44,182 nucleotides of DNA from Bacillota bacterium (GTDB lineage: Bacteria; Bacillota; Clostridia; TANB77; UBA1234), in NCBI GenBank assembly GCA_016280725.1, contig JAEEHF010000076.1, forward strand, positions 1 to 44,182, given 5' to 3'. This document shows, piece after piece, positions 5,436-44,182 of this stretch; positions within the stretch are counted from its first letter, which is position 1; every line of letters begins with the position of its first letter. The notes beneath the pieces were generated by a model that was not told the DNA's origin, did not search any database, and was given only the letters and a program-made list of their open reading frames with translations. Position numbers and translations under genes: made by a program.

Positions 5436-5443
5436 TTTTCACC

Positions 5444-6562: not shown

Positions 6563-6695
6563 ATAATAAACCCTCCATTTTTTTCTAAAAATTTAAAAGT
6601 TCTTCTTTAGTAAAAAAAATGAAATTTTTTAATTAAATAAATAATATTTAATAATAATAATAGTAATATATGTTAGTAAAGTTAGTAACTAATCT

Positions 6696-6713
6696 AAAGT
6701 GTACTTCCGTAAG
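6696..6713. repeat. Copy 1 of a dispersed CTTCCGTAAG motif
   Basis: AAAGTGTACTTCCGTAA (6696-6712) recurs identically over 17 bases at 25132-25148. The core CTTCCGTAAG spans 6704-6713. It lies in the dnaA-dnaN gap. Confidence 0.6.
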
Positions 6714-6846
6714 AAAAAATCGATGTTAACAAAGTGTGAATTCTAAACAAACAATATAAACATATTTAACATTTGAATTGTGAAAAAATACAAAATCACA
6801 TGTTAATAACATGAATTTCACATTTTGATGTTAGTATTCAATCTAT

Positions 6847-6859
6847 TGCTTCCGTAAGT
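6847..6859. repeat. Copy 2 of the dispersed CTTCCGTAAG motif
   Basis: TGCTTCCGTAAGT (6847-6859) shares 13 bases with the copy at 25017-25029. It lies 46 bases beyond the dnaA stop and 145 bases from copy 1, in the same orientation. Confidence 0.6.
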
Positions 6860-6904
6860 AAAGATAAAAGATTTGTAAACTAATTTATTATTATGTTACT
6901 TTTT

Positions 6905-24383: not shown

Positions 24384-24411
24384 GGGATAGAAGAAAGGAA
24401 ATGTGTTATAG

Positions 24412-25211: not shown

Positions 25212-25240
25212 TGGACAATTATAATTAAAAGACTTATATT
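25212..25240 (+). promoter_or_regulatory. Probable promoter of the giant gene
   Basis: TGGACA (25212-25217), a 17-base spacer and TATATT (25235-25240) each match consensus at five of six positions. The leader carries a 10-bp inverted repeat AAGATATTAA (25246-25255) / TTAATATCTT (25277-25286) before the GGGAGAG ribosome binding site. Confidence 0.6.
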
Positions 25241-25320: not shown

Positions 25321-28300
25321 ATGAACAGAAAAACAAAACGTTGTATTTTGATAATGCTAACACTCTTAATCAGCCTGGTGGTAGGAACAGCTACACTGGC
25401 GTGTGAACACTGTGGAGTGGAAAGCTGGAGGGAAGTACCCGAAACGTATACAGGAGGGCAAACACAGACTCAGCACATGAGTTACATTCACGTATGTAAC
25501 AACTGTGGACAAGCTGGCGAGTCATTGTGGCGAAACCATAAATATCAAGCTGGTTCTACAGTTTGCTCGGTATGTCAATACGAAAGTGCTCCTGTTCATG
25601 AACACACTTGGGGAACAGAAAGGACGTATACGGTATATCCAACATGTACAACAGGTGGATCTTATTACCTTACATGTACAACGTGTGGTGAAATGCAATC
25701 GTATTCTGTTTCTGCATTGGGACACAACTATGGTGATTGGGAAGACTACAGCAATACTCAACACCAAAAAATCTGTTCAAGAGACATCTCTCACATTGAA
25801 TTCGAAAATCACGTAGATTCAAACGGAGACGGTTTATGTGATATTTGTGCACATGGTATTGTAACTGCTCTTCCAAAACCATTTATAATTGACACTTATG
25901 TTTATTCTGGTTTTGAGTATGAAGCAGCAATAGCAAATTATGACGGACTATTAATGACAGCCTCAAACATATATAGGACAAACGCTGGAACACAGTATGT
26001 TTCAATAATCTTAAATGACAAAATAAATTATTGTTGGGATGATGGAAGCGTAGATGATCTATCTTTAGAATTCACAGTTGAAAGAGCAACGATAGATATT
26101 CCAGAAGGATTGTCATTTGTTTTCAATGACACAATTCAGCAGGGAGTTCCAAATGGTCAATTTTATGAAATTTCAGGAACATATTCAGCTAAAGATGTTG
26201 GTGAATATACAGCAACTGTACAACCAGATACAAATCACAAGTGGAGCGATGGTACAATAACATCTAAGAATATTTCTTGGTCTATCACACCTGCCATTGT
26301 GCCAGATGTTATTACAGTTGATTGGGAATATGATGGAAAAGAAAAAGAAGGAGTTACTCCAGTACAAGGATTATCTATTACTGGTGATTTGGTTGGAACT
26401 GATGCAAAAACTTATACAGCAATAGCAACTCCAGATTCAAACCATACATGGTCAGATGGTACAAGAACAGCAAAGACACTTACATGGGAGATTACCAAAA
26501 AGCCAATTAGTGTTATATGGGGATCACAAACTGTATTTAATTATGACGGAAGTGCACATGCTCCAACTGCTACTATTCAAACAGGTGTTTTAGGAGAAAC
26601 GATGGCTGTTACAAGAACTACCAAAACCAACGTTGGTACTTACACATCTGTTGCTACACCGGGTAACGTAACTGGTGGAAGGGCTAAAAAAGGAAACTAT
26701 CTTGTTACAAATCTTGAGTGTGATTTCTCAATTGTTGAAAACACAGTATCGGATTTTGAAATTACATTATCGCAAAATTCTTTTGAGTATGATGGCACTC
26801 AAAAAAGACCTTCAGTTACAGTAAGAAAAGGTGGAACAACTCTTACCGCATCAAATTATACAGTATCATATCAAAATAATATAAATGCTGGAACGGCAAC
26901 TGTTTTAATTACTGGACAAGGAACTTATACTGGAAGTGGATATAAAACATTTACAATCAATAAAAAACAAATAAGCACTGTGTGGGATGAAACTACATTA
27001 AGTTTCACATATGATGGGAATATTCATTTGCCAGTGGCAGCGGCTAATACTGGAATAACAGGTGAAATGGTTGAATTACTTGTATTAGGGTCAAATAAGG
27101 ATGCCGGCTCATATACAGCAACTGCATTGATTAATAAAGTTTCAGGCGGAAGACAAAGTGCAAGCAACTATGAATTAACAAATACTACTCATGCTTACGT
27201 TATTAATCAACGAGAAATAGTTGCTTCACCAAAAGGCGGATTAGGTAAAGTATATGGAGAAGAAGATTCAAGATTAATTCCACAATTTTCTAACCTTGTA
27301 GAGGGAGAAATTCCATCTACAACTGGATCACTTACAAGAGCAGCTGGCAATGACGTTGGCGAATATGCGTATACTGGAATAGGATCAATTGAATTAATAG
27401 ATAATGGAACTTTTAATGCAAATAACTACACGTTATCGTATGCAAATAATGGCAATCAATTTAAGATTGAACCGAAAGATTTGTCATATGCTTTGGTTGC
27501 AGTGGATCCAGTAGAAGAAAAGTATAACGGAAGTGAGATAAGACCTTCTGTTACTGTATCAATAGAGGGCATTACATTGACAAGAGAAACTGATTATTCA
27601 GTTACTTATAAGAACAATATTAATGTAGGTGTCGCAACAGTTGAAATTAATGGATCAGGAAATTATAAAGGAAAAGCAGAAGGAAGATTTTCAATAAAGC
27701 CTTCTCCAATAATTGACTATGATAATGTTATTACAACAGTTCTAAATACAACTTCTATGGTATATACAGGAACACCAAGAGAACCGGAAGCTACGGTTAC
27801 ACTTAATGGAATTAGATTAGAGAAAAATTTAGATTATACGATTTCATATAGAAATAACATTAACGTTGGTAATAATGCAGTTGCAATTATAAAAGGAATT
27901 GGCAGAATTTTTGGAACGAAGGAATTGCTATTTAGCATAACACCAACAACACTAAACGGAACAGCTACAGTAGAACCAAGTTCATTTATATATAGTGGAA
28001 AAGAAAACACACCACTATTAAAGAACTTCACCTTAGATAATGGAACTGTTCTTGTTCAAGGACGCGATTATGAAGTTTCATATAGAAACAATATAGATGT
28101 TGGTAGGGGTGTATTAATTGCAACTGGTAAAAACGGACTTGGAGGAACACAAGAATTCCAGTTTGAAATTAAAAAGAGAACACCAATTATTACAATGACA
28201 GATAGATCAGTTCCTTATACAGGTCAGCCTTTTGCGCTTGATGGAGCTTCAGTATATGGAACAATAAATTACAAGAATTTACAAAATGTTGATGAGATAT

Positions 28301-31300
28301 CAAATTATATAGTATATAACTACTATTCTGATTCGGGACTAACAACAAAAATAAATGGTGTTCCAACAGAAATTGGAACTTATTATGTTCAAGCTACACT
28401 TCCTGAAGATGCAAACCATAATGAGGCAAAATCTAATGTTGCAAAATTAACAATTTTTGGTGCACCATCAAACCCAATAATAAGTGGAAATAACGGAAAC
28501 AGAACGTTACCTTCTGGATGCACAGTTAATGAAGGACTGTATATAAACATATATGGAAGTGAAATTACTGCATCAAGAGGAACAACCATTAAATATATGT
28601 ATAGGATAAATGAAATAGCATGGATAGCGTATAGTGGGACAATTTCTAACACACTAGAAGGACATTATATAGTAGAGGCTTATGCGTATGTTGCTGAAAG
28701 ACCAAGTTTAAGATCTGAAACCGTTACTTATGAATTTACAATAGATAAAAGTGTACCAGAGATATCAGATAGTGATATTGTTATACCTGAAACTACAGAT
28801 ACAGTTGTTATAGAAGTTGATGTAACAAATACAGATATAAAGGAAATATTTATAACAGAAACTCAAGGGTATAATCCAACTGCTCTAGATAACTGGAGTA
28901 ATGTAAGAGGTAGAGTTAACGGAAAAACAATATTCGAACTTTCTCAAGGTGATGAAGTTAAGACATTATACATTTGGGAGAGAGATGAGGCAGGAAATGT
29001 TAGCGGGCCAATTACAAAGAATATAATTTTAAATGCAACAAAAATAGGAAATATAAATAATAATAAAGCAAATATATTCTTTAAAGTAACAGATGAATAT
29101 TTACACACGGCCAATATAACAAAAGACGATGTTTTATTCTACATTAATGGATTTGAAACATCAGGAAAACTTCTTTCATTAAGCAGAGAAGAAATTGCCA
29201 ATGGATATAAGTTTAGTGGTGTGATGAACAACATCACAGGTGATGGAGAATTAAGCTTTAAAGTAAGTAAAGAGCTTATATTTGATAAAGCAGGCAACAC
29301 AATTTCTAACATAAATGAAATTGTAAGAACTGAAGAAATTACTGTAGATAATACAATTCCAAAATTAAATATATCTTCTTCGGAAGCAAGTATTCATATT
29401 GAAGTATCTGACGAACATTTAAAAGCAGTAATGATTAATGGAGCCATTGTTGCTAATCAAGATGGAAGCTATGATACGGAATTGTTCTATGGAAAGAATA
29501 CAATAACTGCAATTGATGAATATGGAAATGAAAACATCAAGATAGTATATAGAGAGTCAGAAGAAGCAGAATTTATAAGGAGCACACCTAATGAGCCAGA
29601 ATTATATGATGGCATGAAGGCTGTATACTATACTGGTGATACAGAGAACGTATCAGATTACTTTGACGAAACGATGTATTCATATGAAGATCCAAATGAT
29701 AATTTGGAAAACACATCATCAGAGTGGGCAAACGCAAAAACAGAAGATGGAAGTATGTGGGTATGGATACCAAGATATGCATATAAGGTAACATACTATA
29801 CAGATGCAACAAAAACATCTGTAAGTGATACAAAAACAAATTATGCTTCATACGATATCCTATTTTTACATGAAGCAAGCAATGATTATAAAGACCAAAA
29901 TGGAACGATATCTCCAATGCCTGATGGATATACCGTAGCGGCTGCATTCGCTGGAAGCTATGATAATGGAAATTCAGTAGCTGAAACAAGAGGATTTTGG
30001 ATTTCAAAGTATGAAATATCTATGGAGACATCTAGTGACGGTCAAACATGGGTAAATGGTGATTCGGCAGAATTTGGTGGAGGAAACATTCTTACAACTA
30101 ACGCAGGAAATAGTGAATACATAAGAGCAGTTTCTAAGCCAAATAGGAATTCTTGGAGAGGAATAAATATATCTAATGCATATTTGAATTCAAGCAGTAT
30201 GCTTACAAAATGCAATTCACACTTAGCAAAGAATAGCGAATTTGAAGCAGCTCTTATACTTGGAAATAGTGCATATGGAAGAAATGGATCATATATTGCA
30301 TTAGATACAGATATAAAAACTGGAACAGCAGTTGCTACTAGCACAACTGGAAATGTTACCGGTGTATTTGACATGCTTGGTGGTGCATGGGAGTATACAT
30401 CAACATATTTAAATACTTTATCAGATACAAGTGATACAACTGCATTAATAAATGGCAAGTCAAACAATAAAGAAGTTTTAAGCAGTAGTGATTTATCGAA
30501 CATTATATTTGATGAAAAAGAATATGGTGTTATGGGGAATAATCCTCAAAATGCATATCAAACTTCAAAGGTAGTATTTAGAGGATTAGACTATACCAAT
30601 ACTAATATTGCTACTGGAAGTATTCCTTCAAACGGAGCAGCAAGCAATAAGATAGGCTATAGAGTTACTTTAAGCAGAAAGGATAGAGGTACTTTAACAA
30701 CATTTACAGTTAAGAACTATACAAGAAACCTTAACTCTGCTTCGTATACGTTAAACTCTACTGACACATTCTCGGCTTATGATGGTGATGAATTATTTGT
30801 AAGTTCATATAGAAAAGAGATTCCTGGATTTACATTATTTAAAGGATTTATAAATAACGGTGGAACAACAATTCCAGAAAATGGAGAAGTTCAGAAATTC
30901 TCTGTAGATAAAAATGGAAATACAGTATTAAATATTTACTATAGAAGAAACATATTAAGAATCAAGTTCCATGTAAACGGAGGATATTTAGGGCAAACAA
31001 GTCTTGCAGGAGCACATTTGTCAGATTCGTTTTTCTGTTATAATGGAGCACCTAAGGGAGAATTCTGGCAAGGTGTTTATGGTGGATATGTTGGTTCTAG
31101 AAAAGACGCAACTTTAGATACGGTTAAAGATGGAATATATAATTATAATAATTCATCTGCTATTAACTTTAAGAGAACAGGATATTATATTGAAAGCAGG
31201 GCGGAATGGAATACAAAACCTGATGGAACGGGAACATCGTTTGACCAAGCTAAAACGAATTATTCTGCAAATACATTTGCAGGATGTGATTTGAGCAAAG

Positions 31301-34300
31301 GTGATCAAGTAGTTACATTATATGCTAATTGGAAACCAATTCATTATACAATTAGATTTGACCAAAATAATGGAACTGGAAGCATGGAAGACATTCCAAT
31401 GGTGTATGAACAAACAGTTACATTACCAAATAATACATTTACTAGAGAAGACTGCGTATTCTTATATTGGAATACAAAACCAGATAGAACAGGTACTACT
31501 TACCAAAATGGAGCAACGGTAAGGAACTTAACAACAACAAATAACGCTGTTATTACACTTTATGCACAGTGGAGATTTAACTATGCAAGATATGAAAGTG
31601 GTCCTAAGTTTAATGAGGATATTAAGAAGTTAGCTGGAACTGCAAATGCAACAGTTAGTTCAGATGATTATTTAATTAGAAAAATTGAATGGCAAAATGG
31701 ACCATTTACTGTTAATAATGTACCAAGTGGAGCAATAAACGTTGCAGGCATAGAATATATGCCTATATACGCATGGCTTGAAGGAACAACAGTTAAATTA
31801 TGGAGTGAAAGTGAAAAAGTACTGTTAGATGACGATTGTTCATCTATGTTTAGAAGATTACGTAATTTATCTGAAATGGATATTAAAGATGTATTGCATT
31901 ATACAAATTCAGATAATGTAACAAATCTTGCATATTTATTCTCTGGATGTAATAACATAACAGATATTGATATGACAGACTTTAATACGTCTATAGTTAC
32001 AGATATGTCATATATCTTTAATGAGTGTACAGCTCTTGCACAATTGGATATTAGTACATTTAATACTGAAAAAGTTGAAAACTTTACGGCAGCATTTAAA
32101 GCTATAAGAGGAATTTCTATATTAGATTTAACTGTTCTTGATACTTCAAGTGCAACAGATATGACACAAATGTTTTATGGAAACGACGGAATTGTTGAAT
32201 TAATAATAACAAGTTTTGACACAAGCAAAGTTGAAAAAATGTCAAGAATGTTCTATGGATGTTCAAATCTAACAAAAATACTTGCTTCGGAAAACTTTGT
32301 AACTACAAGTGTAACTGATGACTCAAATATGTTTACGGGAAGCCAAAGAATAAATGGCGGCTCGGGAACAACATATAATGCAGCACATGTTGGAAAAGAA
32401 TATGCACACCTAGATGGTAAAGATGGCTTGCCAGGATATTTCTGGAATGAAATATTCTATACAATAGCATTTAATGCAAACGGTGGAACAGGAACGATGA
32501 GCAATATTCCTGCACAGTATGGATTTAATGTAACATTACCATCAAATACCTTTACAAGAAATGGATATACATTTAATGGATGGAATACTAAAGCTGATGG
32601 AACTGGAACGGCATATGCAAATGAAGCTACTGTAAAGAATTTAACATATGTTAATAATTCAACAGTAACTCTATATGCACAATGGAACGTTATTGTATAT
32701 ACCATTACATATGACTTAGATGGTGGAAACGTAGAAGTAGAAAATCCTACAACTTATACAGTAGAAACTCCAACATTTACATTAAATAATCCTATAAAAG
32801 AGGGATATACATTTAAAGGCTGGACAGGAACGGAATTGCCGACGGCTCGCGTCAGCGTGTCTATAAATCAAGGAAGTTATGGAGATAGAAGCTATGTTGC
32901 TACTTGGGAAGAAAAAGTTGCAAAATATGTCACAGGTAAAAACTTCAATGCAATAATTAAACAATTAGCAGGTGACACGGGTGCTACACATCAAACTGTA
33001 AATACGACAATTACAGGCATAGAATGGCAAACATCTAAGCCGGCAGATAGCATTTTGAATGCTTCTACAACGAAGAATGTAGGGCTAACAACAGAAACTC
33101 CTATCTATGCATGGTTTGATAATGGAAAAATAAAATTATGGTCTGATGCAAGACATATATACTTTAACGAAGATATGTCACTTATGTTTGTAAGGATAAG
33201 CAACTTAAACGAACTTAATCCAATTCAAGACTGCGGTGTTACAGAGGGAACTTCAAATGTAACAAATCTATATGGAACATTTGCATACACAGGAATAAAC
33301 GGTAACACTTATAAGCTAAAGGGACTTTCAACTTGGGATGTTTCTAAAGTTACATCTATGACGAGCTTATTCTTAGAAGCTGGAAAGAGTGCACAAACAT
33401 GGGAAATAGGAGATTTGTCAAGCTGGAATACTTCTAAAGTAACTAGAATGGATTACATGTTCTATAGAGCAGGTATGAATGCATCAAATTGGAACATTGG
33501 TAGTCTAGCAAATTGGGACGTATCAAAAGTAACTACAGCACTATATATGTTTAGAGAAGCTGCAATTAAAGCAACCTCATTTAACCTAGGAAATCTAGAT
33601 AACTGGAATACAGGCAATATTACAACAATGGGTTCTATGTTTGCGAGTGCAGGTAAAGAGGCACAAACATGGAATATTGGTGATTTATCAGGGTGGAATA
33701 CGTCAAATTCAACAAATATGCAATCTATGTTTAGAGATGTTTGTGTAAGTGGAGACACATTTAACATAGGTAATATAAACAATTGGAATACATCAAAAGT
33801 AACCGATATGTCACATATGTTCAATAAGGCTGGACAATCTGCATCTAATTGGAATATAGGAGAATTAGATAATTGGAATACAAGTCAAGTTAAAAATATG
33901 TCATATATGTTCCAAAACGCTGGTATGTCAGCAGCAACGTGGAACATAGGAAAGCTAGACAATTGGAATACTGAAAAAGTTACGTCATTTATATACATGT
34001 TCCAGTATGCGGGATACTCTGCTAATACATTTGACATAGGTAATTTAGATGATTGGGAAATTGGAAGTGCAACATCAATTTCATATATGTTCAACTATGC
34101 AGGATACAATTCAGAGACATGGAATATAGGACATTTGGATAATTGGGATGTATCAAATATAGAATATATGACATTAACGTTTGGTTGGGCAGCACATGGA
34201 GTTAATGATACATGGGATATAGGAAACTTAGACAATTGGAAGACAGGTAAAGTTAAATCTTTTGCCGGCACATTCCAACAAGCAGGAAATGGTGCAACCA

Positions 34301-37300
34301 CATGGAATATAGGAGATTTATCTAATTGGAATGTTTCTAGTTGTACCAATGCAGATGGAATGTTTACAGAAGCTGCATATCATGCTACGTCTATGAATAT
34401 AGGTAATTTAGATAATTGGAACGTTTCAAACCTTGTACATGCAACTGCAATGTTCTGTGATTTAGGCTTATATGCTACATCATGGAATATCGGAAACTTG
34501 TCTAATTGGGATGTTTCTAATGTAGAAACAATGCATGGTATGTTCTATCATTATGGTGGACGAGATACTTCAGCGGACACATTGGATTTATCTGGATGGG
34601 ACACATCAAAAGTCACAGATATGAATAGAATGTTCTCAAACTCTTCGGTGCTTAAAAAGATATATGCTTCACCGTCATTTGTAACAACAAATGTTACAGA
34701 TTCCGAGAATATGTTTAGATATTGTCCGGTATTAAAAGGTGGAAATGGAACCGTATTTAATGAGAATCACATAGATGCTGAATATGCATGGATTGATGGA
34801 AGAATAGATCCAGATACTGGTGTAGCAAGACCAGGATATTTCTGGTGTCATGATGAATATCAAATAACATATGACAAAAATACAACAGATACTGTAACAA
34901 ATATGCCAGAAGCTCAGACAAAGAAATATGGCGAACCACTAACATTATCTAGCATGGTTCCAGTAAGAATAGGATATACATTTAAAGGGTGGGCAGAAGC
35001 AAGTGATGGTCCTGTTTTATATAATGCAGGTGGAACATATAGAAAGAATAGTGAAGCAACGCTTTGTGCACAATGGGAAATAAGGAACTATGGTGAATTT
35101 GATGGCGATAGTCTTGTAAATGCATATGACACACTACAAGAAGCATTTAGTGGAGCAACAAGTGGAAGAACTATTAAACCATTAGTTGGAATAACAGAAA
35201 CAACAACAGCCTCAGTTCCATTAGGAAAGACGTTAAGCCTTGACTTAAATGGAAAGGTTACTTCATTAAGTGGAGCAGAAATCGTAAACAATGGTAATTT
35301 AACTATAACAGGTGAAGGAACTTTATCTGGAGATTACAATACAGTAGTTACAAATACAGGAACTTTTGTACAAGAAGGAACATCTACAATAAGCTTTAAT
35401 CCTACAACAAATACAAACGAAACTGCGGAGTGTTTAGCTATTATAAATTCTGGAATTTGTAATTTAAACGGTGGAACAATTACAGGAACAAGAGCAATTA
35501 GAAATATTGCTCAAGGTGCTGTAATAATTCAAAATATGACAATACAAACTACTAGAGCAGGAATTCAAAATCGTAGCTCAAGAAATACAGAAGCAAATCC
35601 AGGATTAAGAATAATTAGTGGCTCACTAAGGGTAACAAATTCAGGAAATGTTGTTTCTACTTCTACAGGTGGTTTGACAGTAATTGATGGCGGAACAATT
35701 CAAGGAACATCCAATGATACGCCTGCCGTTATAAACTCAGATGGAAGAACAATTATAAACGGTGGAACAATTACAAAGTCAAGAGATAGAGCTGTACGTC
35801 AATGGAAGAGCACAACCGGCGTAATTGAAGTAAGAGGTGGAACAATTAATTCTACTCAAGGAGTTGGTATTAGTTCTCAAAATGGTGGAACAATAATTGT
35901 TACAGGAGGAACTATTACTGGTGGATCAGAAGGTATTAGATTATATGGCACAGATACTTTAATAATTGGAACAAATGAACAGGTGCCAGATGTAAGCACA
36001 GAAGTACCATCTATTACAGGTGGAACAATGGGTATTAATGCAGAAGTTGGAACTATAAAGTTCTATGATGGTGTAATTAAAGGTTCTACAAATAATGCTA
36101 TAGTCGGAAGTGTAGCAGAAGTTCCGGTAAATTACGGAATTAAGAAGACCACAAGTGGAAATATTGAGACAGCAATACTGGTACCTCAATATGTAATTAC
36201 ATATAATGCAAATGGTGGACAAGATGCACCAGCTTCTCAAAATAAATTAGAAGGTGTAGACATAGCTCTTGCATCTGATGAGCCAACGAGATTAGGCTAT
36301 GCATTTAATGGGTGGTCTACTACAAGTAATGGAACAGTTGAATATACTTCAGGTGCAACATATTCTGCAAATGAATCAACCACATTATATGCAGTTTGGA
36401 GCGAAGAGACTTATGTAATAACATACGACTTAGACGGAGGAACGGTAGCTGCTGCCAATCCAACAAGTTACACAGTGGAAACGGAAACATTTACATTAAT
36501 TAATCCAACTAAAGACGGATACACATTTACAGGCTGGACAGGAACAGGATTGTCAACGGCTAGCGACAGCGTGTCTATAAATAAAGGAAGCACTGGAGAT
36601 AGAAGCTACACTGCAACATGGAGCATTATTAGATACACAGTTGAATACTATCAAGGAAATAATAGTTCAACTTCAGGATTTACGAAGTTTGATGTTACAG
36701 ACGTTCATACATATGGACAAAGCAAGAACTTAAAAACATATGCTGAACTTGGTGGAACAGCTCCAGAAGGATGGACATTTGATGGTTGGTCACAATCTGA
36801 AACAGGTACAAGGAGGACATTTACAGATGGTCAGTCAGTAACAAATTTAACTGACGTACAAAATGGAGTAATTAAACTATATGCGATATTTGTTAGAAGC
36901 ATTAGATTTAAATCTGGATCAACTGGTGCAACAGGTAAAATAATAAAACAATATTATAATCCATATAATGTAGTTGGATATTTAACATCTGTAGAAGTGC
37001 CAACATTAGCAACTATATCAGAATATTGGAATCCTCTTGGATATAGGGAAGATACAGTTGCAGGAACCGCTACGGTAGCAATTGGAAGTAATATAACTCC
37101 AGCAGTAAATGGCACAACAACATACTATGGTGTATATGAAAAGATTATTGATGTATATTCGGGTGTATTAAAAGAAACTCATACAACAACAACTCAATAT
37201 GTCAATGTTAATAATAATACGGTTTCCAGTGTAGAAGTGCCACCGCTAACAACTATAGACGGATGGACAAAAAACGGTTATAGAGATGATGAACTACCTG

Positions 37301-40300
37301 AATGGGCACATTTTAGTGTAGGTGATACGGCTCGCACAATAAATATTAGTTACGATAGTAGCAATACTACACTATATGGTGTATATAATCATAATTGTTC
37401 ACTAGAATATAGACCTAATTACTCGGGAGCAACAATGAGTGTTGGCGCTAGTAAAATAGTATGCCTAAATACAAGTTCGGCTACAACAGGTGCAGCTACA
37501 TTTACTATAAATAATGTGAGCTGGACATCAGGAAGAGAAGGATATAATTTCGTAAATTGGAATACAGAACCGGATGGAAGTGGAATTACTTACGTTGTAG
37601 GTGATAGCGTCGTTAAGACTTATCAATATAATGCCCCATCATTTACTACAACTATTTATGCTCAATGGACACCAATTGAGTATTCGATTGCATTTGACGC
37701 AAATGGTGGAACCGGAACAGCAATGGCAAGTATACCTGCAACATATGATGTTGCTCAAAACTTACCAACTAATACATATTCAAAGACAGATTATGCATTT
37801 GATAGTTGGAATACTATGGCAGACGGAAGTGGAACATCATATAACGATGGACAAAGTGTAAGTAACCTAACAACAACTGATGGAGCTACAATAACACTTT
37901 ATGCACAATGGAGACAATCGGCATTTACGATTTCATATGAATTAAATGGTGGAACTGTTTCTACACCAAACCCATTTGGATATAGTGTAGACTCAGAAAC
38001 ATTTACATTAAATAATCCAACAAAATCAGGATACGACTTTGTAGGTTGGTCTGGAACTGGATTAACAGGAAATGCAAATAAAACAGTAACAATACCTCAT
38101 GGAAGCACAGGAAATAGAAGCTACACAGCAAACTGGACATACACAGCAACTCCACAAATTGTATTAGACGACTATAATACATTTAACTATTCTGCAGATG
38201 GCGGAGCTTTATACTTTGTAAGCACAACTCAAACTACAGTACCAAGTGCAGGAACTTCTGGATGGACTACTTCAACTACTACAGGAAACTTAACACTTGT
38301 AGAAGGAACTACATACTATGTATGGGTTAAAGATGAAAATGGAGAAGTATCTCCAAATGGCAGTACAATAGCAGTAAGAACAATTACAAGAGAAGTAGCA
38401 GAAGGAAGCACATTAATTGCTAAGTATACAGATTCAGAAGGTGCGGATATTTCATTTAGTAGTAATAAGGCAAACGTATTAAATGGTACAGCTGTATACA
38501 TACAAGCAACTGCTAATATGGGATATCATGATCCAATACTAAAAATTAATGACGCAGCACAAATGGATGCAACATATGTAGGAAACGTAACTTCTAATGT
38601 TTCAATTAGAACAATGGTTTCGTTGTATCCATACACAATCACATATGACCTAGATGGTGGAACAGTTGCATCTGCAAATCCAACATCTGGATACTATAAT
38701 ACAAACGTTAATATAGCAAACCATCCAACAAAGAGTGGATATACATTTACAGGTTGGACTGCAACATCGGGACTTAATACAACTAATGCAAAATATGGAG
38801 ATACAGCTTCAACAGTAACTACTTCATGGAGCAGTGCTAGTACAAAAGTCAAAGCAAAGTACTTTGTAAATTTAGCAACGCTAGGTAGCACAATTGTTTT
38901 AAAAGCTAACTGGCTAGAAAACAATTATTTAAATACTTCAACGTCTACGTATTACGAGACGCTAGCGACTGCATTGTCTGAAGTTCAAAGTAACCAAACT
39001 ATACAGGTTGTGAAAGATTTAACTGATGCATCAACAGAGGATCCAACACTTGCAAGTGGAAAGACGGGAGTTAAGCTAGATTTAGTTGGTAAAACAGTGA
39101 CATTGAATAAACAAATAGCTAACAATGGAGAATTAGATATTTATACAACAGTTAATGGAGCGATACTGCAAGGAAATTTTGGGGGAGGAAACACCATACA
39201 CTATACTGGAGCACTTTTGTTTAACAAAGGAACATTGACAATAAATGAAACTAATGATAATTACACAATGAGTATTATTAATTCAGGTGATGGGGAAGCT
39301 ACAAATGTAATATATAATGAAGGAACATCTGCTTCCATAACATTAAAATCAAATGTAACACTAAAAAATACATGGAATACCAATAATTATTTTCTGGGAC
39401 AATATGTAGTTTATAACCAAAAAGGAAATGTAGTGATAGACGGAGCAAAAATTGAAAATGAATCCCTTCATGGCATTTATAATAATACGAATGCACAGTT
39501 AACGATACTGTCAGGTAGAGTTGAAACAAAACTAGTTGGCATTTGTTCGTATGGAAATACATATATATATGGAACTGAGAGTGAAACAATAATATCAAGT
39601 TCAGATGATTATGCTATATATAGTGAGGGTCCTTTAAACATATGGGGGGGTAAAATAATTTCAACTCGTTCTGAAATATCTGATTATTATAATGCTGATG
39701 GTTTAAGGTTAAAAGGAACTCAACCAGTAAATATTTATGGCGGAAATATTTCTGGCGGTATATATGGAATTGACGTTGATTTTGATTACGATAGTGTTTG
39801 TTTAAATATTTATGGAGGAACTATAATAGGAAGAGGAATAAATGGTTCAGAAGACCAGAAAGATTATGGAATTTATTTGAACAATGGAACTGTAGAAGTA
39901 TCTGGAGATGTAATTGTCTCTGGTCAAAAATATGGAATATATAATAATAACGGTACGGTTAGAATAAGGAGCGGAACAATAGAAGCGACCGCTACAGATG
40001 GAATTGGGATAAGTGCTTATAATTATGCTAATAGCGTAGTGCTTGGTTCCAATGACAATGATGTTAGTACAACATCACCAGTTATAAAAGCAATATCTAA
40101 TATAGGTGTTTCAGTGAGGGGCACAGCACCATTATATTTCTATGATGGAAGAATTCAAGGAGAGCCAGGCAAATCAATCTATTCTGATGTTACAGTCATA
40201 ACGCCATCAGGCTATGTAGTAAATAAGACAACTGCAGATGGAATTGAAACAGCAACATTGGCTCCAACTTTCACATCAACAATTAGAATAAAGAAAGATG

Positions 40301-43300
40301 ATGTAAATTGGTCAAGTAGCGGAATGAATGTTGCACTATATCAAGATGGTGTTCAAAAGTATGCATATAGTTCAGCTACAACGACCGGCTCAAATATTGT
40401 ATTTAATGATGTTTTAGAAGGTACATATGATGTATATGCAACTAGAATTGGAACAACTAAGACGACAATTATTGACACAGGAATAGATATTTCTACTAGC
40501 TTGCCAAATGCAACATTAGATTACTATACAGTTACAAGGGTGGTTGGATCTAACTCTTCTCTAACGACAAAAATAGGAGATTCAAGTGGAACATCATTTA
40601 CAACTACTCCTACACAAGTACTAAAAGGAGAAACTATATATGCTAATGCTACAGCAAGTGGCACAGGATATACAGGCTACTTAAAGGTAAATAATATTGA
40701 TTCTGATAATAATACAACATATGCAATAAATAGTGCTACAAAATTTGCATCTTCTAGAGGATATATAAAATATCCTGTTACATACTATCCTGGAACAACA
40801 GATACAGTAACAGGAATGCCAGCTAATCAAGTTAAGACGTATGGAACGACATTAAAATTGTCTTCTGATAGACCTTCAAGAACAGGATATTATTTCTTAG
40901 GCTGGGCAACAACTGAAGGAGCAACTTCCGCAACATATCAACCGGGGGCAAATTATACAACAAACGCTGCTTTATCGCTATATGCTATTTGGAGAGGACC
41001 ACAAATTACATTTAACGGAAATGGAAGCAATATCTCGGGGATTTCATCATTAGCTCCGGTAAATGCACCACCTGGACAAGCTATCACTATACCAACAACA
41101 GATAAGACAGAAATAAACTCGCCAATCACAATGCATAGCTTTGCTGGATGGAGCACAACTAAAGTGGTTGAGGGTGAGGATACAGAGGTTGTTGAGTATT
41201 ATCCGGGAGACCAGATTACTATTACAGAAGACACAACGTTGTATGCTGTATATACTTCAGACCTAATAGAATCAGTTGCAAACGCACCGGTACTTGGTGA
41301 TGGAATGAAAGCAGTTTGGTGGACAGATGAAAATGATCCATTAAATTCAGAAGTAACTGGTAACTCATATCCAGCAGGAACATATAGTTATGTTTCTGTA
41401 GGACATGATGTAAGAGATGAAAAACAATCTAAATGGGCGAATGCAATTACTGAAGAAGATGGAAGCTACTGGGTATGGATACCAAGATATGCATATAAGA
41501 TACACTCATTTAAAACAACAGATAAAAGTAGATTATATAAAGATGAAATAGATTTATACAGTAATCATAATAATAATAAAACAGGACAAATAGAAATAAT
41601 ATTCTTAAATGGAACAACTGATAAATACTTAGGAACCGACAATCAACTTCATGATTTGCCTGAAGGCTACATAGTACACCCAGCATTCCAAAAGATGACT
41701 ACTGAAGAAGAGTCAGGTGGATTGAACCCACTTGGAAAATGGGATTCTGAAATTGAAGGAATTTGGATAGCGAAATATGAGATGTCATTAGAAACATCTA
41801 TAGATGGTGGAACAACTTGGGAAAACACAAATACTATAAATTATTCAAACAGTCAAAGATTGGGATGTATCTATACTACAAACGCTGGAAATGAAGACTT
41901 AACAACTATTTATAGAGTTGTATCTAAGCCTAATATGAATGTATGGGGTGAAGCCGCTGTTGATTACCAATACGATAATTCAAAATATATGAACCCAAAC
42001 TTAAATAGCCATTTGATTAAAAATAGTGAGTGGGGAGCTGTATCATACTTGTCATATTCAACATATGGTAGAAATGGAACAAAAACCACTGTAGATACTA
42101 ATCAAATAGTTACTGATAACAATGATAAAGAGACAAGCACTACTGGTAATATATATGGAATATTTGATATGTCTGGTGGAGGTGCTGAAAGAGTTGCTGC
42201 ATACAACTTGAATACTACTGCACAAAGCAGCTTAACTAGAGAAACAAATATTAAATATAGACAAAGATTCCAATTTTCTAATACATCAATAAGAGAAGGC
42301 GAAGCAGGATATGAAGTTACATATTTAATAAACAATCATAGTTATTCTTCATGGGAAGGTGAAGATTATTATATGATTGATTATTCATACGTTCTACGTG
42401 GTGGATGTAGTGTAGGGCAAATATCTGAACAAATGGGTATAGCTAATAATCCTTCTGATGCCGGACTATTTGCCTCAATAAGTTCTACAGGATATTCAAA
42501 AGACGTCGATAGTATTGAAGATGTATATGCTTATAGAGCAGCACTAATTATTGGCGGAGACGAAAAAACGATAACATATACTTCGGCTTCAAATGATAGT
42601 TCAATTACTAACATACCAGCACCTCAGCAAAAACGAGATGGATTTTCAATTGATTTAAGCGAACAAATACCAACAAGAACTGGCTATACTTTCTATGGTT
42701 GGGCAGATTCTGCAACATCAACTAAACCAGTATATCAACCGGGAGATAGATATAGTAAAAATGGAGATGCAACATTATATGCGATCTGGATGCCAGATGA
42801 GCACATTACATATGATGCAACAAATATAGAATTAGGAATAGGTACATTTACAAATGGCACATCACAAAATATTGTTGCATATGATACTAATAATACAGTA
42901 GTTACAAAATATTCTCATACATCCAATATTGATGATGAAGGTATAGCTTCAGGAACATATAGTAATAACTTAGAAACAAATGATGTAGTAACAATACCAG
43001 GAGCAATATCCCTTCATGTAAAATTATATTATTCTACGCAAAGTACACTTACTGACTGGGTATGTGTATGGGAAGGAAATAAAGCAAACTATATTGCAAA
43101 TAGGAACTATTCTTCAAGTAAGCTTGGAACAAATACTGGAAAATTTGGCGACGGTATGAAAACTACATTTGAACAAGCAACACTAATAGAAGGAGATATT
43201 GATGGAGATACCGTAACATTTGGGTTCCATTCAAATGCAAGTTCGGCATACTATGGTTACTATGCGATTGTTACAAATAATGGAACTTTAAGTACTGCTG

Positions 43301-44182
43301 GTGGCTATGAAGAACCGATACTTACAAATATGAACTTTGTAGGTTGGGCAGATGTAAATAATACAACTCTTCCAACTTATACAAGTGAGCAAGAAGTTGT
43401 TGATGCAAAAATTCCAGATGGAACAGTGTATGCAGTATATGGATATAACATTGAATATGATTTAAATGGCGGAACAAGCTCTGCAATACCAAATGGAACA
43501 AAATTAAAAAATGTTGACTTAACTTTACCAAGTACAACAAGAGAAGAATTTACATTTATGGGTTGGGATGAAAATCCAAATCAAAATCCTGATACACCAA
43601 CATATGTTGGAACATCAGCTATCTATTCTGCAAATGCATCTGTAAAATTATATGCAATTTGGAAAGCAAATGAATATCAGATTACATATAATGCTAATGC
43701 AGGAACAGATACTGTAACCAATATGCCAGAAAACCAAATTAGATATGGTGGAACAACACTAACTTTGTCAGATAAAGTTCCTGTAAGAGGAGATTATACA
43801 TTCTTAGGTTGGAAAAAGACTGCTTCAGGAACATCAGCACAGTTCCAGCCAGGAGGAAGCTATAGTGATAATAATAGTGTTATACTATATGCATTATGGG
43901 CACACAAGGTAACGTATAATGCAAATGGTGGTACCGGAGCACCAGCTGCTCAAAATAAAATTGATGGAGTAAATTTAACATTAAGTTCGACAAAGCCTAC
44001 AAAAGAAGGGGTTATATTTGTTGGTTGGAGCTTGGGTGCTTCAGATAACAATGTGGTATATCATCCAGGGGATATCTATTCTACTGAAGCAGATTTGAAT
44101 CTATTTGCAGTATATGGTGCAATTATAACATTTGATGCAAATGCAGAGGATGCTAGTCTGGGTAGTGTTCCTACAACAGTTC
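25321..44182 (+). CDS. Giant exported multidomain protein, at least 6287 residues (3' truncated by window end)
   Basis: One frame is open from ATG 25321 (GGGAGAG 7 bases upstream) to the window end; I translated every line and found no stop. Residues 1-27 are a signal peptide (LIMLTLLISLVVGTATLA). Order of parts, by residue: CxxC pairs (28-185), MBG/Ig-like repeats (about 190-1050), Ig-like/loop domains (1060-1420), FGE-like domain 1 (about 1424-1790), Flg_new repeats, short BspA LRR block (about 2190-2330), two Flg_new repeats, 30-residue LRR array (2671-3091), Flg_new, beta-helix 1 (about 3257-3620), many Flg_new units, beta-helix 2 (about 4539-4980), FGE-like domain 2 (about 5324-5747), more Flg_new units. 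The composition (T, N, G, Y rich; few Cys after the start) fits an extracellular adhesin. Its end, and thus its anchor, is not in the window. Confidence 0.9.
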   Translation, partial: MNRKTKRCILIMLTLLISLVVGTATLACEHCGVESWREVPETYTGGQTQTQHMSYIHVCNNCGQAGESLWRNHKYQAGSTVCSVCQYESAPVHEHTWGTERTYTVYPTCTTGGSYYLTCTTCGEMQSYSVSALGHNYGDWEDYSNTQHQKICSRDISHIEFENHVDSNGDGLCDICAHGIVTALPKPFIIDTYVYSGFEYEAAIANYDGLLMTASNIYRTNAGTQYVSIILNDKINYCWDDGSVDDLSLEFTVERATIDIPEGLSFVFNDTIQQGVPNGQFYEISGTYSAKDVGEYTATVQPDTNHKWSDGTITSKNISWSITPAIVPDVITVDWEYDGKEKEGVTPVQGLSITGDLVGTDAKTYTAIATPDSNHTWSDGTRTAKTLTWEITKKPISVIWGSQTVFNYDGSAHAPTATIQTGVLGETMAVTRTTKTNVGTYTSVATPGNVTGGRAKKGNYLVTNLECDFSIVENTVSDFEITLSQNSFEYDGTQKRPSVTVRKGGTTLTASNYTVSYQNNINAGTATVLITGQGTYTGSGYKTFTINKKQISTVWDETTLSFTYDGNIHLPVAAANTGITGEMVELLVLGSNKDAGSYTATALINKVSGGRQSASNYELTNTTHAYVINQREIVASPKGGLGKVYGEEDSRLIPQFSNLVEGEIPSTTGSLTRAAGNDVGEYAYTGIGSIELIDNGTFNANNYTLSYANNGNQFKIEPKDLSYALVAVDPVEEKYNGSEIRPSVTVSIEGITLTRETDYSVTYKNNINVGVATVEINGSGNYKGKAEGRFSIKPSPIIDYDNVITTVLNTTSMVYTGTPREPEATVTLNGIRLEKNLDYTISYRNNINVGNNAVAIIKGIGRIFGTKELLFSITPTTLNGTATVEPSSFIYSGKENTPLLKNFTLDNGTVLVQGRDYEVSYRNNIDVGRGVLIATGKNGLGGTQEFQFEIKKRTPIITMTDRSVPYTGQPFALDGASVYGTINYKNLQNVDEISNYIVYNYYSDSGLTTKINGVPTEIGTYYVQATLPEDANHNEAKSNVAKLTIFGAPSNPIISGNNGNRTLPSGCTVNEGLYINIYGSEITASRGTTIKYMYRINEIAWIAYSGTISNTLEGHYIVEAYAYVAERPSLRSETVTYEFTIDKSVPEISDSDIVIPETTDTVVIEVDVTNTDIKEIFITETQGYNPTALDNWSNVRGRVNGKTIFELSQGDEVKTLYIWERDEAGNVSGPITKNIILNATKIGNINNNKANIFFKVTDEYLHTANITKDDVLFYINGFETSGKLLSLSREEIANGYKFSGVMNNITGDGELSFKVSKELIFDKAGNTISNINEIVRTEEITVDNTIPKLNISSSEASIHIEVSDEHLKAVMINGAIVANQDGSYDTELFYGKNTITAIDEYGNENIKIVYRESEEAEFIRSTPNEPELYDGMKAVYYTGDTENVSDYFDETMYSYEDPNDNLENTSSEWANAKTEDGSMWVWIPRYAYKVTYYTDATKTSVSDTKTNYASYDILFLHEASNDYKDQNGTISPMPDGYTVAAAFAGSYDNGNSVAETRGFWISKYEISMETSSDGQTWVNGDSAEFGGGNILTTNAGNSEYIRAVSKPNRNSWRGINISNAYLNSSSMLTKCNSHLAKNSEFEAALILGNSAYGRNGSYIALDTDIKTGTAVATSTTGNVTGVFDMLGGAWEYTSTYLNTLSDTSDTTALINGKSNNKEVLSSSDLSNIIFDEKEYGVMGNNPQNAYQTSKVVFRGLDYTNTNIATGSIPSNGAASNKIGYRVTLSRKDRGTLTTFTVKNYTRNLNSASYTLNSTDTFSAYDGDELFVSSYRKEIPGFTLFKGFINNGGTTIPENGEVQKFSVDKNGNTVLNIYYRRNILRIKFHVNGGYLGQTSLAGAHLSDSFFCYNGAPKGEFWQGVYGGYVGSRKDATLDTVKDGIYNYNNSSAINFKRTGYYIESRAEWNTKPDGTGTSFDQAKTNYSANTFAGCDLSKGDQVVTLYANWKPIHYTIRFDQNNGTGSMEDIPMVYEQTVTLPNNTFTREDCVFLYWNTKPDRTGTTYQNGATVRNLTTTNNAVITLYAQWRFNYARYESGPKFNEDIKKLAGTANATVSSDDYLIRKIEWQNGPFTVNNVPSGAINVAGIEYMPIYAWLEGTTVKLWSESEKVLLDDDCSSMFRRLRNLSEMDIKDVLHYTNSDNVTNLAYLFSGCNNITDIDMTDFNTSIVTDMSYIFNECTALAQLDISTFNTEKVENFTAAFKAIRGISILDLTVLDTSSATDMTQMFYGNDGIVELIITSFDTSKVEKMSRMFYGCSNLTKILASENFVTTSVTDDSNMFTGSQRINGGSGTTYNAAHVGKEYAHLDGKDGLPGYFWNEIFYTIAFNANGGTGTMSNIPAQYGFNVTLPSNTFTRNGYTFNGWNTKADGTGTAYANEATVKNLTYVNNSTVTLYAQWNVIVYTITYDLDGGNVEVENPTTYTVETPTFTLNNPIKEGYTFKGWTGTELPTARVSVSINQGSYGDRSYVATWEEKVAKYVTGKNFNAIIKQLAGDTGATHQTVNTTITGIEWQTSKPADSILNASTTKNVGLTTETPIYAWFDNGKIKLWSDARHIYFNEDMSLMFVRISNLNELNPIQDCGVTEGTSNVTNLYGTFAYTGINGNTYKLKGLSTWDVSKVTSMTSLFLEAGKSAQTWEIGDLSSWNTSKVTRMDYMFYRAGMNASNWNIGSLANWDVSKVTTALYMFREAAIKATSFNLGNLDNWNTGNITTMGSMFASAGKEAQTWNIGDLSGWNTSNSTNMQSMFRDVCVSGDTFNIGNINNWNTSKVTDMSHMFNKAGQSASNWNIGELDNWNTSQVKNMSYMFQNAGMSAATWNIGKLDNWNTEKVTSFIYMFQYAGYSANTFDIGNLDDWEIGSATSISYMFNYAGYNSETWNIGHLDNWDVSNIEYMTLTFGWAAHGVNDTWDIGNLDNWKTGKVKSFAGTFQQAGNGATTWNIGDLSNWNVSSCTNADGMFTEAAYHATSMNIGNLDNWNVSNLVHATAMFCDLGLYATSWNIGNLSNWDVSNVETMHGMFYHYGGRDTSADTLDLSGWDTSKVTDMNRMFSNSSVLKKIYASPSFVTTNVTDSENMFRYCPVLKGGNGTVFNENHIDAEYAWIDGRIDPDTGVARPGYFWCHDEYQITYDKNTTDTVTNMPEAQTKKYGEPLTLSSMVPVRIGYTFKGWAEASDGPVLYNAGGTYRKNSEATLCAQWEIRNYGEFDGDSLVNAYDTLQEAFSGATSGRTIKPLVGITETTTASVPLGKTLSLDLNGKVTSLSGAEIVNNGNLTITGEGTLSGDYNTVVTNTGTFVQEGTSTISFNPTTNTNETAECLAIINSGICNLNGGTITGTRAIRNIAQGAVIIQNMTIQTTRAGIQNRSSRNTEANPGLRIISGSLRVTNSGNVVSTSTGGLTVIDGGTIQGTSNDTPAVINSDGRTIINGGTITKSRDRAVRQWKSTTGVIEVRGGTINSTQGVGISSQNGGTIIVTGGTITGGSEGIRLYGTDTLIIGTNEQVPDVSTEVPSITGGTMGINAEVGTIKFYDGVIKGSTNNAIVGSVAEVPVNYGIKKTTSGNIETAILVPQYVITYNANGGQDAPASQNKLEGVDIALASDEPTRLGYAFNGWSTTSNGTVEYTSGATYSANESTTLYAVWSEETYVITYDLDGGTVAAANPTSYTVETETFTLINPTKDGYTFTGWTGTGLSTASDSVSINKGSTGDRSYTATWSIIRYTVEYYQGNNSSTSGFTKFDVTDVHTYGQSKNLKTYAELGGTAPEGWTFDGWSQSETGTRRTFTDGQSVTNLTDVQNGVIKLYAIFVRSIRFKSGSTGATGKIIKQYYNPYNVVGYLTSVEVPTLATISEYWNPLGYREDTVAGTATVAIGSNITPAVNGTTTYYGVYEKIIDVYSGVLKETHTTTTQYVNVNNNTVSSVEVPPLTTIDGWTKNGYRDDELPEWAHFSVGDTARTINISYDSSNTTLYGVYNHNCSLEYRPNYSGATMSVGASKIVCLNTSSATTGAATFTINNVSWTSGREGYNFVNWNTEPDGSGITYVVGDSVVKTYQYNAPSFTTTIYAQWTPIEYSIAFDANGGTGTAMASIPATYDVAQNLPTNTYSKTDYAFDSWNTMADGSGTSYNDGQSVSNLTTTDGATITLYAQWRQSAFTISYELNGGTVSTPNPFGYSVDSETFTLNNPTKSGYDFVGWSGTGLTGNANKTVTIPHGSTGNRSYTANWTYTATPQIVLDDYNTFNYSADGGALYFVSTTQTTVPSAGTSGWTTSTTTGNLTLVEGTTYYVWVKDENGEVSPNGSTIAVRTITREVAEGSTLIAKYTDSEGADISFSSNKANVLNGTAVYIQATANMGYHDPILKINDAAQMDATYVGNVTSNVSIRTMVSLYPYTITYDLDGGTVASANPTSGYYNTNVNIANHPTKSGYTFTGWTATSGLNTTNAKYGDTASTVTTSWSSASTKVKAKYFVNLATLGSTIVLKANWLENNYLNTSTSTYYETLATALSEVQSNQTIQVVKDLTDASTEDPTLASGKTGVKLDLVGKTVTLNKQIANNGELDIYTTVNGAILQGNFGGGNTIHYTGALLFNKGTLTINETNDNYTMSIINSGDGEATNVIYNEGTSASITLKSNVTLKNTWNTNNYFLGQYVVYNQKGNVVIDGAKIENESLHGIYNNTNAQLTILSGRVETKLVGICSYGNTYIYGTESETIISSSDDYAIYSEGPLNIWGGKIISTRSEISDYYNADGLRLKGTQPVNIYGGNISGGIYGIDVDFDYDSVCLNIYGGTIIGRGINGSEDQKDYGIYLNNGTVEVSGDVIVSGQKYGIYNNNGTVRIRSGTIEATATDGIGISAYNYANSVVLGSNDNDVSTTSPVIKAISNIGVSVRGTAPLYFYDGRIQGEPGKSIYSDVTVITPSGYVVNKTTADGIETATLAPTFTSTIRIKKDDVNWSSSGMNVALYQDGVQKYAYSSATTTGSNIVFNDVLEGTYDVYATRIGTTKTTIIDTGIDISTSLPNATLDYYTVTRVVGSNSSLTTKIGDSSGTSFTTTPTQVLKGETIYANATASGTGYTGYLKVNNIDSDNNTTYAINSATKFASSRGYIKYPVTYYPGTTDTVTGMPANQVKTYGTTLKLSSDRPSRTGYYFLGWATTEGATSATYQPGANYTTNAALSLYAIWRGPQITFNGNGSNISGISSLAPVNAPPGQAITIPTTDKTEINSPITMHSFAGWSTTKVVEGEDTEVVEYYPGDQITITEDTTLYAVYTSDLIESVANAPVLGDGMKAVWWTDENDPLNSEVTGNSYPAGTYSYVSVGHDVRDEKQSKWANAITEEDGSYWVWIPRYAYKIHSFKTTDKSRLYKDEIDLYSNHNNNKTGQIEIIFLNGTTDKYLGTDNQLHDLPEGYIVHPAFQKMTTEEESGGLNPLGKWDSEIEGIWIAKYEMSLETSIDGGTTWENTNTINYSNSQRLGCIYTTNAGNEDLTTIYRVVSKPNMNVWGEAAVDYQYDNSKYMNPNLNSHLIKNSEWGAVSYLSYSTYGRNGTKTTVDTNQIVTDNNDKETSTTGNIYGIFDMSGGGAERVAAYNLNTTAQSSLTRETNIKYRQRFQFSNTSIREGEAGYEVTYLINNHSYSSWEGEDYYMIDYSYVLRGGCSVGQISEQMGIANNPSDAGLFASISSTGYSKDVDSIEDVYAYRAALIIGGDEKTITYTSASNDSSITNIPAPQQKRDGFSIDLSEQIPTRTGYTFYGWADSATSTKPVYQPGDRYSKNGDATLYAIWMPDEHITYDATNIELGIGTFTNGTSQNIVAYDTNNTVVTKYSHTSNIDDEGIASGTYSNNLETNDVVTIPGAISLHVKLYYSTQSTLTDWVCVWEGNKANYIANRNYSSSKLGTNTGKFGDGMKTTFEQATLIEGDIDGDTVTFGFHSNASSAYYGYYAIVTNNGTLSTAGGYEEPILTNMNFVGWADVNNTTLPTYTSEQEVVDAKIPDGTVYAVYGYNIEYDLNGGTSSAIPNGTKLKNVDLTLPSTTREEFTFMGWDENPNQNPDTPTYVGTSAIYSANASVKLYAIWKANEYQITYNANAGTDTVTNMPENQIRYGGTTLTLSDKVPVRGDYTFLGWKKTASGTSAQFQPGGSYSDNNSVILYALWAHKVTYNANGGTGAPAAQNKIDGVNLTLSSTKPTKEGVIFVGWSLGASDNNVVYHPGDIYSTEADLNLFAVYGAIITFDANAEDASLGSVPTTV
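25402..25860 (+). other. CxxC-pair region of the giant protein
   Basis: Residues ~28-180 contain CEHCG, CNNCG, CSVC, CTTCG and CDIC, plus SALGHNYGDW. The same unit type forms residues 40-235 of the 1135-residue neighbour (IPALGHNYGSW), so the two genes share an N-terminal module. Similar CxxC/HNYG units are common in clostridial surface proteins; the metal or disulphide role is inferred. Confidence 0.75.
25870..28470 (+). other. MBG/Ig-like repeat region of the giant protein
   Basis: About ten beta-rich repeats with the signature YDG-x-PSVTV, NYTVSYQNNINAGTATVLITG-GTY (for example near 26761-26960, 27541-27680, 27781-27920). These are MBG-type and related bacterial Ig-like units, which normally act as stalks. 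Confidence 0.7.
29590..30690 (+). other. FGE/SUMF1-like (C-type-lectin-fold) domain 1
   Basis: Begins DGMKAVYYTGD, contains MWVWIPRYAYKV, RGFWISKYEISMETS, GVFDMLGGAWEYTS and VFRGLDYTN, and closes IGYRVTLSR. The order matches the sulfatase-modifying-factor fold (DMxGNVWEW ... RGGSW ... GFR), but I see none of the enzyme's catalytic cysteines. A binding rather than enzymatic role is likely. Confidence 0.65.
30955..31575 (+). repeat. Flg_new (InlB B-type) repeats, first group
   Basis: Two consecutive ~75-residue units of the type FDQNNGTG ... LPNNTFTRED ... YWNTKPDRTGTTY ... LYAQW. They are the first of roughly 20 such units in the gene. Later ones lie near 32458, 32698, 34861, 36193, 36415, 37681, 37924, 38635, 40777, 42570, 43445, 43678, 43906 and 44115. 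Confidence 0.8.
31900..32320 (+). repeat. Short BspA/DUF285 LRR block, ~24-residue period
   Basis: Repeats of the form LDTSSATDMTQMFYGN and SFDTSKVEKMSRMFYGCSNL recur about every 24 residues, the usual DUF285 spacing. This contrasts with the 30-residue array downstream. Confidence 0.75.
32821..32895 (+). repeat. Conserved repeat segment shared with 36535-36609
   Basis: This 75-base stretch begins TGGACAGGAAC and includes AGCGTGTCTATAAAT. It is much closer in DNA to 36535-36609 than the flanking repeats are, including an unusually GC-rich patch (ACGGCTCGCGTC here, ACGGCTAGCGAC there). Confidence 0.6.
33331..34593 (+). repeat. Array of fourteen 30-residue DUF285-type repeats
   Basis: Fourteen consecutive 90-base units (one of 93) encode NWNTSKVTxMxxMFxxAG followed by xxAxTWNIGxLx. 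The phase never breaks from 33331 to 34593, 421 residues in all, and a partial unit (GWDTSKVTDMNRMF) follows. Invariant features are W at position 2, MF at 13-14 in most units, and WNIG or FNIG near 24-27. Unit sequences differ, so the array is old and under selection, not a recent expansion. Confidence 0.85.
35090..36180 (+). other. Parallel beta-helix segment 1
   Basis: Residues ~3257-3620 show short repeating strands with NGG-T turns (LNGGTITGTRAI, VIDGGTIQGT, INGGTITKS, VRGGTINSTQ, VTGGTITGGSEGI). This is typical of right-handed beta-helix (pectate-lyase-like) stalks, here following a domain with the LGKTLSLDLNGK motif often seen before such helices. Confidence 0.65.
38935..40260 (+). other. 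Parallel beta-helix segment 2
   Basis: Residues ~4539-4980 are a second copy of the same architecture: VKLDLVGKTVTLN, then NIWGGKII, NIYGGNISGGIYGI, NIYGGTIIGRGI, RIRSGTIEAT, and a closing FYDGRIQG that parallels FYDGVIKG at the end of segment 1 (36061). The two segments are therefore an internal duplication. Confidence 0.65.
41290..42560 (+). other. FGE/SUMF1-like (C-type-lectin-fold) domain 2
   Basis: Begins DGMKAVWWTDEND, contains YWVWIPRYAYKI, EGIWIAKYEMSLETS, IYGIFDMSGGGAERVA and VLRGGCSVGQ, and closes VYAYRAALIIGG. It is a diverged copy of domain 1 within the same protein, with the same landmarks in the same order. Confidence 0.65.
43678..43893 (+). repeat. Flg_new unit most like the left-edge fragment
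   Basis: YQITYNANAGTDTVTNMPE ... LSDKVPVRGDYTFLGW ... LYALW shares DTVTNMPE and LSDKVPVR with the fragment at 1-311. A third related unit is at 34861-35073 (DTVTNMPEAQ) and a fourth at 40777-40995 (DTVTGMPANQ). Confidence 0.8.

Follow-up and report, generated by a model that had tools for sequence, protein, structure and literature searches.

Extracellular proteins of 3,000-8,000 amino acids, named Giant1-5, are encoded by five consecutive genes in Apilactobacillus kunkeei and, according to the abstract of that report, carry N-terminal solenoids (PMC12863079). Ligand-binding modules are grafted onto modular type IV pilins, as in PilB of Streptococcus sanguinis (PMC8179133), and C-type-lectin-fold targets diversified by diversity-generating retroelements (DGRs) are known generally on membrane-anchored proteins (PMC8144416). 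TaqVP is the variable protein of the Thermus aquaticus DGR. Surface proteins with InlB B-repeats and DUF285/PARCEL repeats (PF09479, PF03382 and TIGR02167) occur in Firmicutes and Mollicutes (PMC2996958, PMC8900821).

Here we describe a giant protein of an uncultured gut Clostridia bacterium, which is a genuine, unbroken exported protein. Like Giant1-5 as their abstract presents them, it is huge, elongated, lineage-restricted and length-variable and contains β-solenoid-like modules; unlike them, it has InlB B-repeats, formylglycine-generating enzyme (FGE)-fold domains and predicted CUB domains, none of which that abstract mentions (PMC12863079). As in the modular pilins, binding modules are shared with a pilin-type carrier, the last third of the giant being homologous to a prepilin-type ectodomain of its own genome (PMC8179133); unlike them, the giant begins with a Sec signal and lacks a prepilin one. 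It shares the FGE/C-type-lectin fold with the DGR variable proteins TaqVP and Mtd, and homologous domains in its relatives are retroelement targets; unlike those proteins, its own genome yielded neither reverse transcriptase nor template copy. Its repeats place it beside the InlB B-repeat and DUF285/PARCEL proteins, from which it differs in being far longer, in adding FGE and CUB domains and in having no sortase anchor. Literature searches covering giant InlB proteins, bacterial CUB domains and retroelement targets in Clostridia pilin-like proteins revealed nothing closer than the work cited. The new points are the combination of modules, the predicted CUB fold, and a whole ectodomain common to the giant and a prepilin-type protein.

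The giant open reading frame

The stretch of DNA analysed (44,182 bp, hereafter the window) comprises the leading bases of a 98,733-bp contig. Host MnmG is closest to those of gut Clostridia metagenome-assembled genomes from sheep, rabbit and other hosts, with 75% identity to the best match. The giant frame starts at 25321 and is open to the window end, as the initial annotation had reported from the window, and its stop codon lies past the edge at contig position 46239. The chain, previously put at a minimum of 6,287 residues, has 6,972 (757 kDa, pI 4.7). The right edge, which had been proposed as the place to find a stop and an anchor, thus contains the first and not the second. There are no internal stops and no Ns in the frame. 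Over the same span, each of the remaining five frames contains 274-738 stops, and GC content at the three codon positions is 0.41/0.45/0.19; together these values show that the giant frame is coding.

The host genome is metagenome-assembled (2.2 Mb, 90% completeness, 7% contamination) and several paralogues share the repeats of the giant, both of which would favour a chimera assembled from several repeat genes. However, no exact 40-mer occurs twice within the frame, the longest exact match to the closest paralogous contig is 46 bp, and the last 128 bp of contig C12 recur at the start of the window contig (C108), an overlap that points to an assembly word length of ∼127. On these grounds, simple repeat collapse or misjoining at repeats is unlikely. 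Residues 1-2464 also align end to end with the gene of a congeneric genome (G003) at 50% identity without a frameshift, although the junction into the last third is spanned by no homologue, and frames at the same locus reach 5,315 aa in G003 and about 6,200 aa in G002. Hence, a chimera is highly improbable.

The features of the locus, all on the plus strand, are as follows; residues are those of the giant.

3..311, +, C-terminus of a 2,182-aa prepilin-type protein begun on contig C12
20269..23676, +, 1,135-aa exported neighbour (CxxC, MBG-like, LRR_5), with homologues upstream of the giant in G002 and G003
23811..25008, +, pair of small genes conserved in G003, where they too precede the giant: one of 190 aa (lipoprotein-like), one of 198 aa
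25169..25206, +, terminator-like hairpin, read directly: CCCGCAAACGC, 11-nt loop, GCGTTTGCGGG, TTTTT
25212..25240, +, candidate promoter TGGACA-17-TATATT, a consensus match not above shuffles
25321..44182, +, giant open reading frame, continuing to contig position 46239
25321..25401, +, Sec signal peptide (residues 1-27), a hydrophobic stretch
25402..25854, +, cysteine-rich unit (28-178) with five CxxC pairs (28, 59, 82, 119, 173)
25858..28458, +, MBG-type stalk (∼180-1046): PF18676 31.3 bits (cut-off 25), PF18887 weak
28459..29574, +, putative Ig-like linker (∼1047-1418), weak Glucodextran_B match
29575..30615, +, FGE-fold (C-type-lectin-type) domain 1 (1419-1765)
31345..31566, +, InlB B-repeat 1 (profile)
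31906..32391, +, DUF285/PARCEL array of 25-26-aa units (2196-2357; HMM)
32458..32877, +, InlB B-repeats 2-3 (profile)
33307..34698, +, DUF285 array (2663-3126), with 13 regular 30-aa units from 33400
34858..35070, +, InlB B-repeat 4 (profile)
35098..36186, +, β-helix-like stalk 1 (3260-3622), repeated NGGTITG-type turns
36190..38823, +, InlB B-repeats 5-11 with linkers (profile)
38920..40260, +, β-helix-like stalk 2 (4534-4980), sequence pattern
40255..44182, +, continuing past the edge, region 51% identical to the C12 prepilin-type protein (4979-6781)
40771..41247, +, InlB B-repeats 12-13 (profile)
41269..42411, +, FGE-fold domain 2 (5317-5697; local HMM, family alignment)
42568..42783, +, InlB B-repeat 14 (profile)
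42907..43332, +, predicted CUB-fold domain 1 (5863-6004)
43309..44182, +, InlB B-repeats 15-19 (15 partial; 19 straddles the window edge and ends at contig position 44337)
beyond the window edge, predicted CUB-fold domain 2 (6382-6527), the modelled copy
beyond the window edge, Ig-like stretch (∼6571-6667), sequence pattern
beyond the window edge, third β-helix-like stretch (∼6668-6972), sequence pattern

The hairpin, which has a perfect 11-bp stem and was absent from the scan listing because its loop exceeds the length that the scan permits, separates the preceding gene from the giant, and the giant is therefore probably transcribed as a separate unit. A Shine-Dalgarno-like GGGAG lies upstream of its ATG. 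The 1,135-aa neighbour has the same CxxC units as the giant together with LRR_5 repeats. A convergent ABC permease and ATPase gene pair lies downstream of the giant, and the same pair is found downstream in G002 and G001. Immediately beyond the giant (L011:3480-4185), genes for a Gp49-like protein and then an HTH protein resemble a HigBA toxin-antitoxin pair, and a secreted serpin is encoded at L011:10619-12346 (PF00079, E 6e-47).

Repeat arrays and stalks

Using a profile seeded from Pfam matches, we found 19 InlB B-repeats in the giant, two of them partial, compared with none in 20 shuffles, close to the 20 or so anticipated initially. The PF09479 and PF03382/TIGR02167 repeats both score above cut-off. 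The rest of the module list of the initial annotation held for the most part. Its CxxC units correspond to the five pairs. The MBG portion of its MBG/Ig stalk is sound (MBG_2 exceeds the Pfam cut-off and MBG_3 is weak), and the Ig portion is a putative assignment with a weak match. Its two β-helix stalks are present as sequence patterns, with no Pfam match to either. The repeats it took for BspA leucine-rich repeats are actually of DUF285/PARCEL type, the BspA-type LRR_5 repeats being located in the upstream gene, and two predicted CUB-fold domains, one of them beyond the edge, had been omitted.

FGE-fold domains and their relatives as retroelement targets

Two FGE-like domains of lectin fold had been proposed, and both were recovered. 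Domain 1, when scanned alone, scores 25.1 bits against a Pfam cut-off of 23.3. Domain 2 has no Pfam match and was recovered by a local HMM seeded with domain 2 itself and also by the family alignment. A model of domain 1 built from an alignment of 17 homologues has a pTM of 0.79 and a mean pLDDT of 71, with low-confidence loops. Structural comparison of this model by VIA-align ranked TaqVP first (Z 10.5, 201 residues, 4.2 Å), followed by formylglycine-generating enzymes and the phage protein Mtd with Z of about 5. Foldseek gave nothing useful with the same model, and no FGE structure was among the matches listed. The sole PDB match by sequence is 5vf4, which is TaqVP. At the position of the catalytic cysteine pair, which we take to be that of human FGE, there is no cysteine after the RGL of domain 1 and a single cysteine after the RGG of domain 2. 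Identification as an FGE enzyme (SUMF1) was dropped since the catalytic pair is missing, and from the same absence we infer that the two domains would bind rather than catalyse.

Domain 1 is present in the giants of all four genomes of the genus, and domain 2 was found only in the giant of this genome, the G003 gene being incomplete. Of 114 related genomes, 69 encode homologous FGE domains, and most of the fetched loci with a visible N-terminus have a prepilin-like or other membrane-anchoring start.

We inspected ten reverse-transcriptase loci in related genomes, and eight of them contain a repeat pair of 56-157 bp whose 4-22 mismatches all lie at adenines of one copy. When C or G was taken as the free base in a control scan, just two pairs with 4 mismatches each were obtained; T reproduces the result for A, of which it is the complement. 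One of the eight pairs, that at L182 with 4 mismatches, also emerged when C and G were the free base and, not being base-specific, was excluded from the count. At L174, L175, L176, L177 and L178, from four genomes, the variable copy lies at the C-terminal end of a pilin-like protein that matches the FGE family significantly. FGE-family domains in four relatives are thus targets of adenine-specific retroelement hypermutation. An adenine-biased pair is also present at L183, where the pilin-like protein does not match the FGE profile of the giant, and another at L181 in an apparent phage tail protein.

Searches of the host genome (∼90% complete) found neither a reverse transcriptase nor a duplicate of the C-terminal region of FGE domain 1 or 2, and no adenine-biased repeat pair was found within the window. 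Retroelement diversification of the giant was accordingly rejected. The giant thus carries relatives of a diversifiable domain with no sign of diversification itself.

Predicted CUB-fold domains

A CUB-like unit of 140 residues occurs twice in the giant and twice in the C12 prepilin-type protein. A model derived from seven sequences has a pTM of 0.79 and is closest to PCPE-1 (Z 10.3; rmsd 2.3 Å over 103 residues), and all 50 entries listed for it are CUB or CUB-containing proteins, TSG-6, neuropilin, C1s and C1r among them. Foldseek returned six matches with E < 0.001, all of them CUB-containing complement chains. A Pfam scan of the unit gave no CUB match, a PDB sequence search with the alignment gave chance matches only, and the conserved CUB disulfides were not found, there being one invariant cysteine across the four close copies. 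Two domains of the giant are predicted to adopt the CUB fold. Such domains are rare, being found in 3 of 238 related genomes. In a 2,483-aa frame of another family (G086:C2; L133, L135), two CUB-like domains alternate with SpaA/Cna-B-like units.

Homology to a prepilin-type protein

The 2,182-aa prepilin-type protein is split over the two overlapping contigs (window 1-311 and C12, L014:7690-14055) and has the prepilin-type signal MKNLFNKKNSGISLVALVITIIIIIII at its N-terminus. It exceeds the 860-aa case described as "most extreme" by domain number among modular pilins (PMC8179133). Residues 4979-6781 of the giant are 51% identical to residues 328-2117 of this protein, and the shared last third would most simply have arisen by duplication and fusion. 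From this homology, the lineage appears to shift one binding cassette between pilin-type and free giant carriers.

The same homology bears on whether the giant is a partner of type IV pili, in which case its pilin-derived end would pair with the homologous protein on a filament. Besides the 51% identity, the host genome encodes members of the type IV pilus/secretion ATPase family, including one strong match to the assembly-ATPase family, and the FGE domain of relatives is found mainly on pilin-like proteins. However, the giant has no prepilin signal, and we consider such a partnership improbable. A further suggestion, which we also consider improbable, is that cassettes are exchanged within the genus, FGE and CUB modules evolving on prepilin-type proteins and being copied into giant Sec-exported chains. 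This would include a stage of retroelement hypermutation in other genomes of the order and pilus-free display on the giants.

Export, retention and proposed function

The description of the giant as exported is borne out by its Sec signal, and signal peptides are likewise present at the N-termini of its same-locus homologues in G001-G003. A class III (prepilin) signal is absent, the chain starting with MNRKTKRCILIMLTLLISLVVG. The cysteine at residue 28 creates a loose lipobox, ATLAC; the G003 homologue has AYGC and those of G001 and G002 have none, so that a lipid anchor is conceivable in this species although the motif is not conserved. A scan of the whole chain revealed no hydrophobic segment besides the signal. 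The C-terminal end, TTILVPNS, contains neither sortase motif nor membrane segment, and the only sortase-like motif in the chain is an internal NPTTN. No sortase was detected in the host genome, in which, at 90% completeness, one could have been missed.

Taken with its modules, these properties suggest that the giant is probably a Sec-exported adhesin, secreted or surface-held, with spacer repeats and several binding pads. Sequence and fold prediction establish export and the identity of the modules; we infer ligand, retention and multivalency. Signal peptidase I would release the chain outside the cell, where the repeats may form a long rod presenting the FGE and CUB domains as ligand-binding pads for multivalent attachment to a protein or glycan surface, such as host mucus, feed particles or other cells. 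The protein would then stay on its producer non-covalently or be shed as a matrix protein. In the latter case it would be no adhesin in the strict sense, and a released scaffold for matrix formation or aggregation, shed into mucus or biofilm and cross-linking its partners, is a credible reading that we nevertheless consider unlikely. It is consistent with the lack of a sortase in the genome and of a covalent anchor in the giant or, as far as is visible at their C-termini, in the complete homologues of G001 and G002, but the giant may equally be retained non-covalently; binding to the cell wall may be mediated by the CxxC unit or by the repeats. The earlier view of a modular protein is supported, and the giant is very probably a binding protein, given the predicted lectin-type FGE fold without the cysteine pair, the predicted CUB fold and the spacer repeats.

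Relatives in the genus

Each of the three further congeneric genomes that we examined has a relative at this locus: at least 5,315 aa in G003, where the contig end cuts the gene; an open frame of 6,232 aa in G002, or ∼6,190 aa when counted from the start that is probably used; and 2,834 aa in G001. The genus also encodes several further proteins of 3,900-6,600 aa. A search of genome contigs with the N-terminal 1,893 residues of the giant found no relative. The varied length and modules of the same-locus relatives indicate that the giant family is a genus trait with rapid turnover of modules, and the initial statement that such modules seldom occur together in a single chain overstates the case for this lineage. 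Nor is there support for its ranking of the giant as the strongest candidate in the window for an undescribed system, since it is a surface protein rather than a system. The giant is an unusually large, locally shuffled case of a genus-wide type of surface adhesin and no new kind of system.

By itself the giant leaves known adhesion biology unchanged. It does provide a clear case of one genome with a predicted ligand-binding cassette on both a pilin-type and a giant free carrier, adds predicted bacterial CUB-fold domains that profile libraries miss, and ties giant surface proteins of the gut to domains of a family hypermutated in relatives. Two of the paralogous giants, of 6,570 aa (G001:C17:99460-119178) and 6,086 aa (G002:C2:3201-21476; L042-L045), have similar SLH-like stretches at their ends (FTDIDGHWAYYGIVEAT in G001).
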